A stretch of 36,731 bases of DNA from an uncultured Eubacteriales bacterium (lineage in GTDB: Bacteria; Bacillota; Clostridia; Lachnospirales; Lachnospiraceae). The stretch covers positions 1 through 36,731 of the forward strand of contig ONKP01000010.1 in assembly GCA_900318405.1 (NCBI GenBank), read 5' to 3'. Shown piece by piece: positions 16,141 to 25,027 of this stretch. Positions within the stretch are counted from its first letter, which is position 1; each line of letters starts with the position of its first letter. A program made the position numbers and the translations under genes. A model generated the notes under the pieces. It was given only the letters and a program-made list of their open reading frames with translations. It was not told the DNA's origin and made no database searches.

Positions 16141-16923
16141 ATGGGTTCTCTGGCTGATGATCTGAAATCAGGTCTTACGGTAAAAACAGTTTTCACTATT
16201 CCGCTGTTTGGCGGCATTCCGGTGAAGGAGTCTGTCGTTGTCACGTGGATTGTAGTCGCGGTGCTTGCGGTACTGGGCATCTGGCTCGGGCACGGGCTGA
16301 GCGTCAGGAATCCTTCGAAGCGTCAGCTCTTCGCAGAGCTTGTTGTGACAAAGCTGGATGCGCTGATCGGCGGCATGCTGGGACCGAACGCAAAGGAATA
16401 CACCACCTATCTGGAAACGGTGCTTCTGTACATCGGCCTCGCCAATATCATGGGCATCTTCGGCTTTGTGCCGCCCACAAAGGATCTGAACACGACGGCG
16501 GCTCTTGCCATCATGAGCATCATTCTGATCGAAGCTGCCGGCATCCGGGCGCGTAAGGTCGGCGGATGGCTGCACAGCTTTGCTGAACCGGTAGCCGTCG
16601 TGACGCCGATCAACATACTGGAGATTGTCATCCGGCCGCTTTCGCTGTGCATGCGTCTGTTCGGCAACGTGCTGGGTTCCTTTGTCATCATGACGCTGAT
16701 CGAGCATGTCGTGCCGGTTGTCCTGCCGCTTGTGCTGAGCCTCTACTTTGATATTTTTGATGGCTTTATTCAGGCTTACGTGTTTGTGTTCCTGACATCG
16801 CTGTTTATCTCGGAGGCGTGTGAGATTCCGACGCCGACGCCAAAGAAAAAACGGCTGAAGGGAAAACGCGGGAAGACAGCTGCGGATGCATCCGCAGAGA
16901 ACACTACAGCAACGGCTGCCTGA
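16141..16923 (+). CDS. atpB: F-type ATP synthase subunit a
   Basis: This is the membrane stator subunit that forms the ion half-channels against the c-ring. It has 260 residues. The key motif is PLSLCMRLFGNVLGS with the essential Arg at position 172. The segment IGLANIMGIFGFVPPTKDLN and the final helix VFVFLTSLFISEA are typical. After the last helix there is an unusual tail of about 30 residues: Pro/Thr, then Lys/Arg-rich, then Ala/Thr-rich. Most bacterial a subunits end near the last helix. The ATG at 16141 has GAGGAG upstream. It opens the operon atpB-E-F-(H)A-G-D-C; no atpI is visible before it. Confidence 0.96.
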   Translation: MGSLADDLKSGLTVKTVFTIPLFGGIPVKESVVVTWIVVAVLAVLGIWLGHGLSVRNPSKRQLFAELVVTKLDALIGGMLGPNAKEYTTYLETVLLYIGLANIMGIFGFVPPTKDLNTTAALAIMSIILIEAAGIRARKVGGWLHSFAEPVAVVTPINILEIVIRPLSLCMRLFGNVLGSFVIMTLIEHVVPVVLPLVLSLYFDIFDGFIQAYVFVFLTSLFISEACEIPTPTPKKKRLKGKRGKTAADASAENTTATAA

Positions 16924-16992: not shown

Positions 16993-17202
16993 ATGGCAGC
17001 ACTTGGTGCAGGTATTGCAGCTCTTGCATGTATCGGAGCAGGTATTTCCATTGGTATCGCAACAGCTCACGCTGTGGACGCAATCGCCCGTCAGCCTGAG
17101 GCAGATTCCAAGATCACGCGTAACCTGGTTCTCGGCTGCGCACTCGCAGAGGCGACAGCTATTTACGGATTCGTTATTGGCATCATGATCATCATGTCCT
17201 GA
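16993..17202 (+). CDS. atpE: F-type ATP synthase subunit c
   Basis: This is the rotor ring subunit, a 69-residue two-helix hairpin, slightly short for the family. The loop has the conserved ARQPEA, and the ion-binding carboxylate is Glu53 in [12 protein letters not shown]. Sodium-binding c subunits such as that of Ilyobacter tartaricus have Gln32 and Ser66 around the carboxylate. Aligned through ARQPEA, the equivalent positions here are Ile20 and Ala54, so proton coupling is more likely. The ribosome binding site AAGGAGG lies directly after a duplicated AAAAACAGTTTTA segment. Confidence 0.96.
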
Positions 17203-17319: not shown

Positions 17320-17805
17320 ATGCTTGAGTTAGACATAAATCTGGTCTTTACCATCATCGATGTCCTGATTCTTTATTTTGTCCTGAAAAAATTCCTCTTC
17401 GGCCGTGTACGCAAGGTGATGGAGGAGAGGAAAAATGAAATCGATCAGTCCTACGCTGATGCCGGTCAGAAGATAAGGGAAGCAGACGAGAAGAAGGCGG
17501 CGTACGAGCAGCAGCTCGCTTCGATCGATCAGACCAGAAAAGAGAGCCTGGATAAGGCGAGAAAAGATGCGGACGCGGAGTATGACCGTATCATCTCGGA
17601 TGCCCGCACGCGCTCGGATGAGATCATGAAGGATGCGCACAAGAAGGCGGAAGCCGATGCTGAGCGGTCCAGACAGAAGGCGGAAGACGATATCGCAGCC
17701 ATGGTTAAGGAAGCTGCAGCCAAGATCGTAAACACGGAGAGCGACAAAGAGCTCTACGATGCGTTTCTTGATCAGACCGATCATGAAACAGCTGAAAACG
17801 CGTAA
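17320..17805 (+). CDS. atpF: F-type ATP synthase subunit b
   Basis: This is the peripheral stalk subunit, 161 residues. An N-terminal membrane helix (LVFTIIDVLILYFVLKKFLF) is followed by a long charged coiled coil (residues 35-140) rich in Ala, Glu, Lys and Asp. The C-terminal segment AAAKIVNTESDKELYDAFLD is the region that binds the delta C-terminal domain in other bacteria. Here that domain is the N-terminus of the next gene product. Only one b-type gene is present, so a homodimer is expected. AGAAGGAG precedes the ATG. Confidence 0.95.
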   Translation: MLELDINLVFTIIDVLILYFVLKKFLFGRVRKVMEERKNEIDQSYADAGQKIREADEKKAAYEQQLASIDQTRKESLDKARKDADAEYDRIISDARTRSDEIMKDAHKKAEADAERSRQKAEDDIAAMVKEAAAKIVNTESDKELYDAFLDQTDHETAENA

Positions 17806-17849
17806 AAACCCGACGGATATGTTTTCTTCCGGTGAATGGTGAGACGGAT

Positions 17850-19685
17850 ATGAGTGAAAAGACAGACAACAGACCGCTGCAGGCGGTTCTACGGTGCGTG
17901 ACACCGCCGGATGAGGAACAGCTGGCAAAGTTCCGGAAATTCCTTCAGAAAAAATATCATGCGGAGCAGGTGGAGATCGAAATAAAAGTCGAGCCCGAAA
18001 TCAACGGCGGCTTTATTCTCCAGATCGGCTCTGAACAGTATGACTGGTCAGCGAGCGGCAGAACACGGCAGTTTGAAAACCGTATCGATGCGGCAAGGGA
18101 AAATGCGGCCAGAAACCGGAGCAAAGAGGATATCATGACGATCCTGAAAGGGGCCGTCGATGATTTCCGGCTCGCCGCGGAGAAGAGCGAGGTCGGCACG
18201 GTCGAGACAGCCGGAGACGGCATCGTCCAGATCAGGGGCCTTGATCATGCGCAGTACGGTGAGATCGTGGTCTTTGAGAACGGCGTTCGCGGCATGGTGC
18301 AGAATATCACCACGGATGGCGTCGGTGCCATTCTTTTTGACGAAGAGGGTACGATCGGCGAGGGCTCCCGTGTAACGGCGACGGGCAAGCGCGCCGGCAT
18401 TCCGGTCAGTGAAAATTATATCGGCAGAGTTGTCAACGCGCTGGGCGCACCCATTGACGGCGGCGCACCGATCAGTGCCAGTGAATATCGTCCCATCGAA
18501 GAGCCGGCACCGGGTATCGTAGACAGGCAGTCGGTCAGCCAGCCTCTGCAGACGGGCATCCTTTCCATAGACAGCATGTTTCCGATCGGCCGCGGACAGC
18601 GTGAGCTGATCATCGGAGACAGGCAGACCGGAAAAACATCCATTGCGCTGGATACGATCCTGAACCAGAAGGGCAAGCAGTGTATCTGCATCTATGTGGC
18701 GATCGGACAGAAGGCTTCGACTATCGCGAGCCTCGTGAATACGCTGCGCGAGCACGGGGCGATGGACTATTCCATCGTCATGAGTTCCACGGCTTCGGAC
18801 CCGGCACCCATGCAGTATATTGCACCGTATGCAGCGACATCTCTGGCGGAATATTTCATGTATGCGGGCAAAGATGTCCTGATCGTCTATGATGATCTTT
18901 CCAAGCACGCGGTCGCCTATCGTGCGCTTTCTCTGCTGCTCGGCAGAAGCCCGGGCCGTGAGGCGTATCCCGGCGATGTCTTTTATCTGCATTCAAGACT
19001 GCTGGAGCGGTCAGCCCGTCTGTCCGCAGCGCTCGGCGGCGGTTCGATCACGGCACTGCCGATCATCGAGACGCAGGACGGCGATGTGTCCGCTTATATT
19101 CCGACCAACGTTATTTCGATTACCGACGGTCAGATTTTTCTCGAGAGCGATCTGTTCTTCGAGGGACAGCGGCCGGCTGTCAATGTCGGCCTCTCCGTAT
19201 CGCGTGTCGGCGGTGCGGCGCAGACAAAAGCAATGAAGAAGGCAGCGGGTTCGCTCCGTATCGATCTCGCGCAGTACCGCGAGATGCAGGTCTTCACGCA
19301 GTTCTCTTCGGATCTGGATGAGGCAACGAAAAACCAGCTGAAGCAGGGACGCGTGCTCATGGAACTGCTGAAGCAGCCGCTCGGACATCCGCTTTCTCTG
19401 GCGGAGGAGGTCATCACCCTGACGGTCGGCGAGGGAAAGAAAATGATCGACATCCCGCCCGCACAGGTAAAGGCGTTTCAGGGAGCGCTGCTGACATTTT
19501 TCCATGAACAGCATCCGGATATCATGAAGGATATCGACCGGAAGGGAAGAATGGAGGACGAAACAAAAGATGAGATCCTCCATATAACTGACGAGTTCAA
19601 AGCCTCCTGGAATAAGAAGGATGAAGGCGGAGACAAAACGACAGAAGCAAAACCCGGAGTGACACAGGCAAAGCAGGATACATAA
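17850..19685 (+). CDS. atpA: F-type ATP synthase delta(C-terminal domain)-alpha fusion subunit
   Basis: The 611-residue protein exceeds normal alpha (about 500-515) by about 95 residues at the N-terminus. Residues 11-80 resemble the delta/OSCP C-terminal domain: an LRCVTPPDEEQLAKFRKFL helix, then VEIEIKVEPEINGGFILQIG, then YDWSASGRTRQFENRI, matching the family pattern of GG-F-x-L-x-I-G and D-x-S. The delta N-terminal helical domain is absent. Alpha proper starts around residue 92, with Walker A GDRQTGKT at 256-263 and the catalytic Arg segment SVSRVGGAAQ. A charged tail of about 40 residues ends the protein. No atpH fits in the 44-bp gap after atpF. The ATG at 17850 is preferred over the GTG at 17832. 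An internal ATG at 18135 (residue 96) could give free alpha of 516 residues. Confidence 0.93.
   Translation: MSEKTDNRPLQAVLRCVTPPDEEQLAKFRKFLQKKYHAEQVEIEIKVEPEINGGFILQIGSEQYDWSASGRTRQFENRIDAARENAARNRSKEDIMTILKGAVDDFRLAAEKSEVGTVETAGDGIVQIRGLDHAQYGEIVVFENGVRGMVQNITTDGVGAILFDEEGTIGEGSRVTATGKRAGIPVSENYIGRVVNALGAPIDGGAPISASEYRPIEEPAPGIVDRQSVSQPLQTGILSIDSMFPIGRGQRELIIGDRQTGKTSIALDTILNQKGKQCICIYVAIGQKASTIASLVNTLREHGAMDYSIVMSSTASDPAPMQYIAPYAATSLAEYFMYAGKDVLIVYDDLSKHAVAYRALSLLLGRSPGREAYPGDVFYLHSRLLERSARLSAALGGGSITALPIIETQDGDVSAYIPTNVISITDGQIFLESDLFFEGQRPAVNVGLSVSRVGGAAQTKAMKKAAGSLRIDLAQYREMQVFTQFSSDLDEATKNQLKQGRVLMELLKQPLGHPLSLAEEVITLTVGEGKKMIDIPPAQVKAFQGALLTFFHEQHPDIMKDIDRKGRMEDETKDEILHITDEFKASWNKKDEGGDKTTEAKPGVTQAKQDT
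18126..18137 (+). promoter_or_regulatory. Possible internal ribosome binding site and start for free alpha subunit
   Basis: GAGG at 18126-18129 lies 5 bases before an in-frame ATG at 18135-18137, exactly at the delta-like/alpha junction. Initiation here would give MTILKGAVDDF..., close to the usual beginning of bacterial alpha subunits though about eight residues shorter. Its use is an inference from position and spacing. Confidence 0.4.
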
Positions 19686-19767
19686 AGGCCGGAAAAACGG
19701 CATGAAAAACATGTCCGGAGAAGCATGGTTCTGAGCACAGAGGACTGACAACAGGCAGGTGGTGGCT

Positions 19768-20706
19768 ATGGCTTCAACACGTGAGATCAGAGAGAGAATT
19801 TCAAGCGTTAAGAATACACTGAAGATCACGAACGCGATGTATATGATCTCCTCTACAAAGCTGAATTATGCCAAAGCGGCGCTGGCCTCGACAGAACCCT
19901 TTTATTATCAGCTGCAGTCGATGATCGCGCGTATCCTGAGGCATCTGCCGGAGGATTATCATCACCGCTATCTGGATCATCGCGAGGCAGCAGATGATGC
20001 TGATCTGCGCCGGGCGATTATCTGTGTGACGGCGGACAAGGGACTGGCCGGTGCCTTCAATCACAATGTTCTGAAGATGACGGAAAACAGGCTGCGGCCG
20101 GATTCCAATGACCTGCTGTTTGTCGTCGGTGAGGTCGGTCGGCATTATTTTTCGCACAGGGGCATTCATATAGACGAACAGTTCAGCTATACCGCACAGA
20201 AGCCGACGCTGCCGCGTGCCCGTGTGATCACCTCCCGTATTCTGGAGCTTTTCGGCAACGATGAGATCGATGAGGTCTACATCATCTATACGCAGATGAA
20301 GAACGCGATGGCGACGGAGGTCATCTGCCAGCAGCTGCTGCCGCTGCAGCGTCTGGATCATAAGCTCTTTGTGAAGCAGATGGGCAATGCGACGCAGGAG
20401 GATTTCAGCATGGAGCCGAATCCCTCCGTTCTGCTGGATCAGGTCATTCCCGAATATCTGACGGGTTTTATCTACAGTGCGCTGATTGAATCCTACTGCT
20501 CGGAGCACAATGCCCGTATGCAGGCGATGGATGCGGCGAACAAGAACGGCAATCAGCTGGTCAGTGAGTTGTCCGTGCGTTACAACAGAGAGCGGCAGGC
20601 CGCGATCACGCAGGAGATCACCGAGGTAGCTGCCGGCGCTCGCGCGAGAAAAGAGCAGATGCAGCGCGCTGCGCGGCGTCGCGCGATGAAGAACGCTGAC
20701 AAATAA
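19768..20706 (+). CDS. atpG: F-type ATP synthase subunit gamma
   Basis: This is the central rotor shaft, 312 residues, somewhat longer than the usual 285-295. The N-terminal helix begins ASTREIRERISSVKNTLKIT, continuing into NAMYMISSTKLNYAK; many gamma subunits have KITKAMEMVA here. The middle domain has AIICVTADKGLAGAFNHNV. The C-terminal helix begins ARMQAMDAANKNG and contains LSVRYNRERQAAITQEITEV, both highly typical. The ATG at 19768 follows GGCAGGTGG; GTG codons at 19759 and 19762 are alternatives. Confidence 0.96.
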   Translation: MASTREIRERISSVKNTLKITNAMYMISSTKLNYAKAALASTEPFYYQLQSMIARILRHLPEDYHHRYLDHREAADDADLRRAIICVTADKGLAGAFNHNVLKMTENRLRPDSNDLLFVVGEVGRHYFSHRGIHIDEQFSYTAQKPTLPRARVITSRILELFGNDEIDEVYIIYTQMKNAMATEVICQQLLPLQRLDHKLFVKQMGNATQEDFSMEPNPSVLLDQVIPEYLTGFIYSALIESYCSEHNARMQAMDAANKNGNQLVSELSVRYNRERQAAITQEITEVAAGARARKEQMQRAARRRAMKNADK

Positions 20707-20721
20707 TCCCGGTCAGTGATC

Positions 20722-22273
<1,552 letters not shown>

Positions 22274-22409: not shown

Positions 22410-22832
22410 ATGGCCGAGACAACGCACACCTTCCATCTGCAGGTGATCGCAACACAAAAAGTATATTTTGATGACCGGGCGAAGTCGGTGAATGTACAGG
22501 CTGATGACGGGCGCAGGCAGTTCCTTGCACACGCTGCGGACACAACGCTGGCCATCGTACCCGGCGAGATAGATATCGTCACGGCATCCGGTGAGACGAT
22601 CAGCGCCGTTGCCGGCTACGGTGTCGTCATGTTTGCCAATAACAGGGCCGTTGTGCTGACCGAGACCTGCGAATCGCCGGAAGAACTGGACCAGCGCCGC
22701 GCGGAAGAAGCGCTCGACCGCGCAAAGGAGCGCATGCGTCAGAAACAGAGTATGCGCGAATACATCATGACGCAGGCCGCCATGGCGAGAGCACTTTCCC
22801 GTCTGAAATTCAAGGACAAGAACCTTCACTGA
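22410..22832 (+). CDS. atpC: F-type ATP synthase subunit epsilon
   Basis: The 140-residue protein couples the rotor to the c-ring and can regulate ATP hydrolysis. An N-terminal beta-sandwich (TFHLQVIATQKVYFDD through GYGVVMFANNRAVVLTE) is followed by a two-helix C-terminal domain (ELDQRRAEEALDRAKERMR, then a second helix to LSRLKFKD). The beta domain is diverged from the usual pattern, reading QFLAHAADTTLAIVPG where GILPGH-type text is common. AGGA lies nine bases before the ATG. A 136-bp gap with a weak ACTTAAA/TTTAAGT hairpin (22354-22373) separates it from atpD. Confidence 0.93.
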   Translation: MAETTHTFHLQVIATQKVYFDDRAKSVNVQADDGRRQFLAHAADTTLAIVPGEIDIVTASGETISAVAGYGVVMFANNRAVVLTETCESPEELDQRRAEEALDRAKERMRQKQSMREYIMTQAAMARALSRLKFKDKNLH

Positions 22833-23033: not shown

Positions 23034-24977
23034 TTATACACGGAAGTTCATCAGGAAATTGATAAAGCGGTCACGCGGAACAGGTTTTGAATAGTAAAAT
23101 CCCTGCAGGTAATCCACACCGCAGGAAATCATGAAATCCCGCTGCTGTTCTGACTCCACACCTTCTACAACGGCGTGTCTCTTCAGACTCTTTACGAGGC
23201 TGAGCATATTGGTCAGAATAATGCGGGTATTTTCATCTTTTTCTGCGCCCCAGAGGAAACTCTTGTCGATTTTGATGATCTGGAACGGGTATTTCATGAC
23301 GTAGGAGTAATTGGCATTTCCGGTTCCGAAGTCATCGAGAGCAAAGGAAAATCCGGCGGCGCCCAGCTTTTCTATAGCGCTGCGCATGGCTGTCTCGTTA
23401 TGGATCACAGCGGACTCCGTGATCTCCAGGCATATTTTTGAAGCCGGTACATGATAGAGACTGAGAATCTCCGTCAGCTGATCTGCCAGCTGCGGATCCA
23501 TGCACTGGACAGGAGAGAGGTTGACCTCGACGAAATCCAGCCCGTATTGTTCCGGTTTTTCCTCTGCGAGGAAGGACACCATCTTTTCAAAAACCATGAT
23601 ACCCAGGCGGTTGATCATACCTGTCTGCTCAGCCACGCGGATGAATTCATCAGGCGCGAAGTAGCCGCCTTTTTCGTCCTTCATGCGCACCAGGGCCTCG
23701 CAGGAATGAATCCTGCTGTCACGCGTATCGAAGATAGGCTGATAAAAAACTTCCAGGGAATTGTTGCTGATCGCATGCTGCAGAGAAAACTCCACATCTT
23801 TCATCCTCTGCTGCGGTGCCATGTTGTTCTGGAAGTGCAGTGTATTTTCAGGCAGGCGCTCATCATACGGGCTGTCGATAAATACATTCATCTGATCTTC
23901 ATCCGTGATCTGGTCAGGAATAGCGCCGATCCATATCTGCGTTGTCAGGAAGACCGGCGCCTCGTCGCAGTTCCACTCCTCATGGAAGCGAAGCTGGATC
24001 TTTCCCGCAATCTTCCGAACTTCATCCTCATCAATCTGGTAAAACAGAATAGCGTAGGATTCCTCCTGCGTGTGATAGACACGGATTTTGTCCGAGGCAA
24101 ACTGCTGCAGCCAGGTGCCGATCATTTTTTCCAGGTGTCTGATCGTGAGTGTACCGAGGATCATGCGGTAATAACTGAGGCTGCTGATCTTGACGGAGAT
24201 GACACTGGCCTTGTTCCGCGTCTCAAAGCACTGGCGGACGTCTTTCCAGAGGGCATATCTTCTGCGAAGGCCGGTGGATGATTCAAACTGATCGTTGTCA
24301 CTCTCCAGAATGATGCAGATGATCATGACCAGGAGCGACTGAAGAAAAATAGTAATCTTCATATACTGATTGATGACCATGGGGATCATGGAGAGCCCGA
24401 AGCCGATCACGACGACCAGGATGCTGATATATTCAGGTGGGAGCAGCGCCTTCCTGTAAGATATCACGGTGAAGAGACTGAGTGACAGGTAGAAGACGTG
24501 TATTGCCACATAGAGCTGGATATAGATGATGCCGTGCATATATTCGCCGGTATTGGTGAAATAGTACACCAGTGTCCTGAGCGGAGGGATAAACAGGAAA
24601 ACTATCATGATCACCTCCGGGATGCTGAGCAGGATATAGGTGCGGCGACTGGTCCTGTGGGTAATTCCGATAACCTCGTACAGGTAAATACACAGCGTGA
24701 AGGGCAGCGAATTGTGGAAAAAATGCGAGAAAAATGTTGAAATCCTGAGGATTCCCAGGTCGATGGGGATCCCCTCACCCATGATGTTCCGGCAAATGGA
24801 TGCACAGACTTCACTCACGGCAGACAGTGACAGCGTGAACAGGAGGATCAGGAACGTTCTTGTCCTTCTCTCACGGATAATCCTCGGACGCAGCAGGTAA
24901 AAAATGAGAAGGATGGCATCCAGAAGGATCGCGCCGAAATCAAAATTCAGATTATATCTTCCAGTCGGGTAGAACAT
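23034..24977 (-). CDS. Membrane protein with degenerate GGDEF and intact EAL (c-di-GMP phosphodiesterase)
   Basis: The protein is about 647 residues from the ATG at 24977, with AAAGGA about 12 bases before it; a TTG at 25004 is also open. About seven hydrophobic segments fill residues 13-225. Residues about 253-376 look like a degenerate GGDEF domain without the GGDEF motif (EESYAILF at that place). The EAL domain (about 395-647) is complete: FYQPIFD, CEALVRM with Glu427, VNLSP, EITES, LDDFGTGNANYS, IKIDKSF, VEGVES and LQGFYYSKP. The metal and catalytic residues known for active EAL enzymes are therefore kept. The predicted role is c-di-GMP hydrolysis controlled by a membrane-bound signal. 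Confidence 0.92.
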   Translation of the reverse strand: MFYPTGRYNLNFDFGAILLDAILLIFYLLRPRIIRERRTRTFLILLFTLSLSAVSEVCASICRNIMGEGIPIDLGILRISTFFSHFFHNSLPFTLCIYLYEVIGITHRTSRRTYILLSIPEVIMIVFLFIPPLRTLVYYFTNTGEYMHGIIYIQLYVAIHVFYLSLSLFTVISYRKALLPPEYISILVVVIGFGLSMIPMVINQYMKITIFLQSLLVMIICIILESDNDQFESSTGLRRRYALWKDVRQCFETRNKASVISVKISSLSYYRMILGTLTIRHLEKMIGTWLQQFASDKIRVYHTQEESYAILFYQIDEDEVRKIAGKIQLRFHEEWNCDEAPVFLTTQIWIGAIPDQITDEDQMNVFIDSPYDERLPENTLHFQNNMAPQQRMKDVEFSLQHAISNNSLEVFYQPIFDTRDSRIHSCEALVRMKDEKGGYFAPDEFIRVAEQTGMINRLGIMVFEKMVSFLAEEKPEQYGLDFVEVNLSPVQCMDPQLADQLTEILSLYHVPASKICLEITESAVIHNETAMRSAIEKLGAAGFSFALDDFGTGNANYSYVMKYPFQIIKIDKSFLWGAEKDENTRIILTNMLSLVKSLKRHAVVEGVESEQQRDFMISCGVDYLQGFYYSKPVPRDRFINFLMNFRV

Positions 24978-25002
24978 GCCGTTATCGTTTCCTTTATCCG
25001 GC

Positions 25003-25027
25003 AAAACGCGCCGGACAGGCGCGTTTT
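25003..25027. terminator. Hairpin terminator between EAL and HD-GYP genes
   Basis: AAAACGCGCC (25003-25012) and GGCGCGTTTT (25018-25027) form a perfect 10-bp stem with a 5-nt loop, with a T4 run in the stem base. On the minus strand it lies after the HD-GYP gene and just before the EAL gene, so the two genes are probably separate transcription units. The 25028-25157 stretch shows nothing else. Confidence 0.65.

Follow-up and report, generated by a model that had tools for sequence, protein, structure and literature searches.

ATP synthase operon and the delta-alpha fusion gene

The window, i.e., the whole stretch of 36,731 nucleotides that was analysed, carries an F-type ATP synthase operon with the gene order a-c-b-(delta CTD-alpha)-gamma-beta-epsilon. 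The operon is otherwise complete, and the C-terminal domain (CTD) of the delta subunit lies in one reading frame with the alpha subunit. The following features were recognised:

16141..16923, + strand: atpB, subunit a (PF00119, E 1.8e-39)
16993..17202, + strand: atpE, subunit c (PF00137, E 6.5e-19)
17320..17805, + strand: atpF, subunit b, as its own gene (PF00430, E 3.2e-12)
17850..19685, + strand: delta(CTD)-alpha fusion gene, ATG at 17850, alternative GTG at 17832 (ORF, PF00213, TIGR00962)
17874..18083, + strand: delta/OSCP C-terminal domain, containing GGFILQIGSEQYDWSASGR (PF00213, profile 102-171 of 172, E 1.3e-12; custom delta HMM, E 1.3e-17)
18051..18179, + strand: last delta helix, short linker and N-terminal helix of alpha, model residues 68-110 (AlphaFold model, low confidence, block pLDDT 46-64)
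18123..19607, + strand: alpha core with the P-loop GDRQTGKT (TIGR00962, 731 bits)
19759..20706, + strand: atpG, subunit gamma, ORF from the first GTG (sequence and operon position)
20876..22273, + strand: atpD, subunit beta (ORF; sequence and operon position)
22410..22832, + strand: atpC, subunit epsilon (PF02823 and PF00401)

The end of atpF at 17805 and the fusion ORF running from ATG 17850 to 19685 had been located correctly in the original prediction. The atpA model TIGR00962 matched residues 98-592 of the fusion with 731 bits against a cut-off of 484, and about 85-90 residues precede alpha. When the N-terminal 123 residues were searched alone, residues 15-84 (GTG numbering) matched the OSCP family PF00213 with E 1.3e-12, and the match was confined to positions 102-171 of the 172 in the profile. 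Likewise, a custom delta HMM, which matches 51 unfused frames of the search set, aligned with the extension at its positions 97-170 of 172 (E 1.3e-17). No match to PF00213 positions 1-101, the six-helix N-terminal domain (NTD), was detected in the fusion protein, and the gap between the atpF stop and ATG 17850 is 44 bases long. The original prediction of a delta C-terminal half joined to alpha, with the N-terminal domain missing, is thus in agreement with the profile searches.

In the AlphaFold models, the extension folds as beta-alpha-beta-beta-beta-alpha, with block pLDDT values of 74-85 over residues 11-60. The model calculated with 18 sequences had block pLDDT values of 74-84 in this region and a mean of 63.7 overall, and the model obtained from the single sequence was confident in the extension only. 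The top Foldseek match of both models was 9jc1_I (E 7e-50 for the 18-sequence model). The single-sequence model could be superimposed on the PS3 delta chain 6n2y_I with an rmsd of 2.8 A over 72 columns (E 1.2e-4), so the anticipated structural resemblance to delta was found; poor modelling of the alpha part kept the global TM-scores low. The PDB sequence search placed PS3 delta (6n2y) first and the delta-alpha fusion chain 9jc1_I second. Moreover, the extension is under purifying selection, with uncorrected pN/pS of 0.04-0.34 in eight pairs, compared to 0.01-0.12 for the alpha core. Judged by sequence and predicted fold, the extension is the delta C-terminal domain, conserved and in place of atpH.

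With the gamma subunit of the window as the query, an ORF was matched in 40 of 40 other loci. A Gln in helix 1 of the c subunit is the Na+ ligand of Na+-type enzymes. Read by eye, helix 1 of the window's atpE product is without Gln at this position, and the enzyme is therefore probably of the H+ type. The c subunits of L168, L169, L170 and L063 have GQG in helix 1, which we take to resemble the Na+ type. In some fused operons (L079, L172, L184, L185 and L187), the c frame is 126-151 aa long and begins with a leader, and the a subunit is divergent too, which gives the impression of an exchanged Fo. The atp operon of the window is adjoined by an ORF of 656 aa at 23034-25004 on the minus strand, with an EAL-like domain at its end (by eye). 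Elsewhere in the same genome (G000:C60:108024-109126), a gene for an A/V-type ATPase D subunit adjoins one that encodes an RnfC N-terminal domain, hence the F-type enzyme is probably not the only rotary ATPase of the cell. The A/V-type D subunit was not found in G109 and G142 at E<=1e-3.

Separate delta genes and distribution of the fusion

The search of the whole genome with PF00213 at E<=10 returned the fusion and one weak match (E 0.107, profile positions 59-119). The latter was rejected as a hidden delta, as it sits in an acyl-carrier-protein gene region (by eye). A separate delta was not found at this threshold in the assembly of 2.18 Mb in 91 contigs, estimated to be 91.7% complete, which is consistent with the predicted lack of atpH. 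As 8% of the genome may be missing from the assembly, the related genomes matter for this result. Nine other genomes of the family sample have a single alpha (E<=1e-150), which is either of the CTD-only form or the triple fusion. No separate delta was found in them at PF00213 E<=1e-3, and eight of these (9 of 10 counting the window's own) are at least 90% complete. The ten genomes with one PF00213 match (E<=1e-3) and one alpha are G000, G043, G062, G068, G071, G079, G109, G130, G137 and G142. In seven of them, the match was taken as the fused extension on account of its weak E-value (8.6e-8 to 3.3e-5), the ordinary delta having a far stronger E-value in the genomes listed. At the same threshold, even the fused extension of G004 and G044 went undetected, hence a separate delta could also escape the search if it were very divergent.

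Within the genus, ten genomes were searched with PF00213 at E<=1, which gave the fusion in seven and no match in three. One of the seven, G153, has the fusion and an ordinary delta, while the other six have no separate delta over the cut-off; the remaining matches were weak and under the cut-off, as was the fused extension of G150. [Eubacterium] cellulosolvens LD2006 (L126), in which the fusion is present, likewise has no separate delta over the cut-off. Among the matches listed for the family sample, an ordinary delta is also present in 11 of 20 genomes with the CTD-only form, and that delta could therefore serve both enzymes.

The delta-alpha fusion occurs in at least 31 of the 150 genomes of the family sample, the window's own included; the family is probably Lachnospiraceae. 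These comprise at least 10 nearly full-length delta-alpha forms (frames of 669-679 aa), at least 20 CTD-only forms and one b-deltaCTD-alpha. The counts are lower bounds, since the matches listed did not include a second alpha for G075, G110, G129 and G132, each of which has one, and since G089, with its gene split over contigs, and G147, with its gene cut, were left out. Sixteen genomes of the genus were searched, the window's own included; seven had no alpha gene at E<=1e-100, and the extension was present in 9/9 of those that had it (G154 being partial). The C-terminal 480 residues of the L126 alpha are identical to those of G150, which belongs to the window's genus; NCBI files [Eubacterium] cellulosolvens under Eubacteriaceae. 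Nearly full-length fusions are found in the Oribacterium strains L130, L134 and L136 as well as in Oribacterium sp. oral taxon 078 (L128). Records that are not labelled as MAGs carry both forms, CTD-only (L124, L126) and full-length (L128, L130).

In the phylum sample (398 genomes), the matches listed include in-frame CTD-only fusions outside the family in G185, G229, G332 (f32), G246 (f50) and G434 (f6), with OSCP E-values of 1.5e-20 (G185), 5.3e-16 (G246) and 5.2e-6 (G434). A similar alpha extension in G196 (f42) remained under the cut-off (OSCP E 0.03).

Phylogeny of fused and unfused alpha subunits

Altogether 166 alpha frames were found, 141 after the removal of duplicates, of which 103 entered a quick tree. 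The topology of this tree showed that the fusions of the family except L063 (G071) group with L142 (G434, f6) and a second, unfused type of ATP synthase in a starred clade of 71 rows, referred to here as the main clade. On the alpha tree, the full-length forms do not separate from the CTD-only ones but are interspersed with them. A careful tree was then built of 64 rows, with the fused or odd rows L063, L165, L169, L171, L176, L095, L107, L115 and L121 left out and the canonical rows thinned. On this tree, the CTD-only state requires nine changes, at least six of which are forced by starred branches. A single origin of the CTD-only form in the main clade (32 CTD-only against 16 full-length rows) was rejected, being 141 log units worse (p 0.0012). 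This repeated appearance is in line with the original proposal that the N-terminal domain of delta becomes dispensable once the subunits are fused.

One origin of the fusion in the main clade was not rejected (p 0.55). The free 64-row tree did not recover one fused clade; the tree in which all fused rows of the main clade were constrained together had a likelihood 5.41 higher, which means that the free search was imperfect. Groupings across the clades were rejected in AU tests on a 34-row tree: a single origin of all fusions tested (p 3.7e-9), L063 joined to the fusions of the main clade (p 0.00012) and the f32/f42/f50 rows joined to the same fusions (p 8.6e-5). The fusions therefore arose at least twice, and by the tree probably three times, where L063 was set against the main clade only and not against f32/f42/f50. 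The fused and CTD-only labels were fixed before any tree, and the choice to split off L063 and the f32/f42/f50 rows was made once the quick tree had been inspected.

Most simply, delta and alpha of the main clade would have been fused once, after which the N-terminal domain would have been lost repeatedly, the direction (loss rather than gain) being presumed. The NTD divergence ratio was 1.12 in full-length delta-alpha, 1.07 in unfused and 1.27 in canonical type I sequences. These ratios do not support a relaxation of selection on the NTD in the full-length fusions, where the divergence is not clearly raised (1.12 vs 1.07).

Subunit b and the number of peripheral stalks

The window's atpF product has ELYDAFL near its C-terminus. 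The loose motif [YF][DNE].F[LIV] is present near the C-terminus of 37 of the 44 b genes of the fused type and 10 of the 19 of the unfused type. The strict motif [LV]YD.F[LI] was found in 22/44 and 5/19, respectively, and was not accepted as a mark of the fused type, being present in only half of its b genes.

In G068 (L179:2629-4989), the sole sampled member of its genus, b, delta CTD and alpha lie in one frame of 787 aa. No other b over the PF00430 family cut-off was found in this genome, and no start codon except TTG was seen near the b-delta-alpha junction. If this ORF is real, three b would be fixed per F1. Two further arrangements were observed beside these. In G065, a b-deltaCTD fusion (L180:2593-3285, OSCP E 6.9e-12) occurs with a separate alpha, and a gamma-beta frame of 767 aa (L180:4814-7114) would link the rotor to the stator; internal ATGs near the start of beta are present, and the frame possibly reflects a sequencing error or reinitiation. 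In G071 (L063:1769-2740), a second b gene is followed by two delta-CTD-like repeats (by eye), which Pfam did not recognise, adjoining the separately originated delta(CTD)-alpha fusion.

PMC12229609 (Nat Commun 2025) describes an engineered Bacillus PS3 FoF1 in which delta without its NTD is fused to alpha (delta(dN)-alpha). This enzyme carried up to three peripheral stalks and a subunits, with about two stalks on average, and had an H+/ATP of 5.8 vs 3.0; loss of the delta NTD opened room for several stalks (PMC12229609). It shares with the window's fusion a delta devoid of the NTD on the alpha N-terminus and the absence of a separate delta, and 9jc1 ('Engineering of ATP synthase'), tied to this paper by title and chain content, is the top structural match. 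The engineered enzyme had its stalks counted, whereas the window's fusion is natural and known from sequence and model. The Discussion of the paper notes natural delta(dN)-alpha fusions (Acidaminococcus fermentans, UniProt G4Q3K6 and A0A1I2C5T3), so this kind was already on record in 2025; the original prediction named no described delta-alpha fusion. By description, these cases are also natural and without the delta NTD, and one of the two UniProt entries could come from the window's own family. Unlike them, the window's clade also has nearly full-length delta-alpha forms, of which the Discussion of PMC12229609 makes no mention.

Fusions of b with delta have been reported (delta/b Rosetta stone; PMC5709465). 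In the mycobacterial one (PDB 7jg5), delta is also joined to another stator subunit, but its partner is b, while in the window it is alpha, present three times per enzyme, with atpF (17320-17805) separate. N-ATPases have no delta (PMC5706428). The window's extension weakly matches the C-terminal part of their b (TIGR03321, positions 168-245 of 246, E 7e-4). In N-ATPases, however, the delta-CTD-like part is located on b, and their alpha belongs to another model, TIGR03324, against which the window's alpha scored 582 bits, under the cut-off of 750. A literature search, with most subscription journals outside its coverage, returned no other report of delta-alpha, full-length delta-alpha or b-delta-alpha fusions. 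New here are the breadth of the distribution, the occurrence of nearly full-length forms, the recurrence of the CTD-only state and the chain of b, delta CTD and alpha.

As a rule, the F-type enzyme is taken to have one peripheral stalk and one a subunit. Based on the sequence, the model and the analogy with the engineered enzyme, our main reading (probability of about 0.55) is that the window encodes a natural delta(dN)-alpha fusion whose enzyme probably takes up more than a single b2-a unit, within a range of one to three. By inference from the PS3 enzyme, the b dimer would dock with its C-terminus on the delta CTD of alpha. With three copies of alpha and no delta NTD on the threefold axis, the F1 head would offer three equal docking sites, and by analogy each alpha most likely carries its own socket for a b stalk. 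The original prediction was right about the fusion and overlooked that three alphas provide three possible sites for b and that several stalks find room once the delta NTD is lost, as in the engineered enzyme. With every additional a subunit, more H+ would pass per turn and H+/ATP would rise. ATP could then be made even when the proton-motive force is low, which would be of use to an anaerobic fermenter.

A less probable, though serious, alternative is that the enzyme keeps a single stalk. The extension would then act as delta, with one of three copies used and two idle, and the fusion would only replace the grip of the delta NTD on alpha. As b and a are separate genes, no more than one stalk might form if their dosage or expression is limiting, and the nearly full-length delta-alpha of at least 10 of the 150 family genomes would put three NTDs where one site exists (PMC12229609), so the fusion alone need not mean several stalks. 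The single stalk is harder to reconcile with the average of about two stalks in the engineered homologue (PMC12229609), with the repeated absence of the NTD, the very part that limits stalk number, and with the triple fusion, which would set b:alpha at 1:1; the fused b of G068, the repeated rise of the CTD-only form and the loose b motif were weighed in favour of several stalks. Weighed on the other side were the NTD divergence of the full-length fusions, the low frequency of the strict b motif, the single genome with the triple fusion and the ordinary delta that accompanies many CTD-only forms.

Two other explanations carry little weight. Internal initiation at ATG 18135 (AAAGAGGATATCATG) would yield unfused alpha beside the fusion and restore one delta per enzyme; a purine-rich stretch lies upstream of this ATG in the window, and the codon is kept in the other nine near relatives compared. 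The nearest relative, L103, however, keeps the ATG and not the AAGAGG stretch, and the codon is replaced by one for Val in L083, Leu in L130 and Ile in L127, which are fused genes as well. As the AAGAGG stretch is not conserved, an internal start giving a separate alpha was rejected as improbable. An assembly or annotation artefact could be suspected in a window from a 91-contig assembly, but it is scarcely credible given that the extension recurs in all nine same-genus genomes with the gene and is under purifying selection, and that records not labelled as MAGs carry fusions too.

Extending the multi-stalk reading by analogy to the family is an even bet. The ATP synthases of its members would each contain two or three a subunits and reach an H+/ATP above that of any measured natural F-type enzyme. 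The design would have been reached several times by fusing delta to alpha and then discarding the NTD, and b-deltaCTD-alpha would be its end point, with a stalk arm covalently joined to every alpha.

The fusion engineered in 2025 is thereby seen in natural form. Many relatives have it, it arose more than once, and up to three stator arms could be possible per machine. Unfused, fused and NTD-less forms occur in one clade, which includes [Eubacterium] cellulosolvens and Oribacterium; this suggests the order of the evolutionary steps and makes the stalk rule directly testable. If the native enzymes break the one-stalk rule, H+/ATP would be set by the number of a subunits together with the size of the c-ring, and ATP synthesis in fermenting bacteria could proceed at a proton-motive force that does not suffice for ordinary enzymes.
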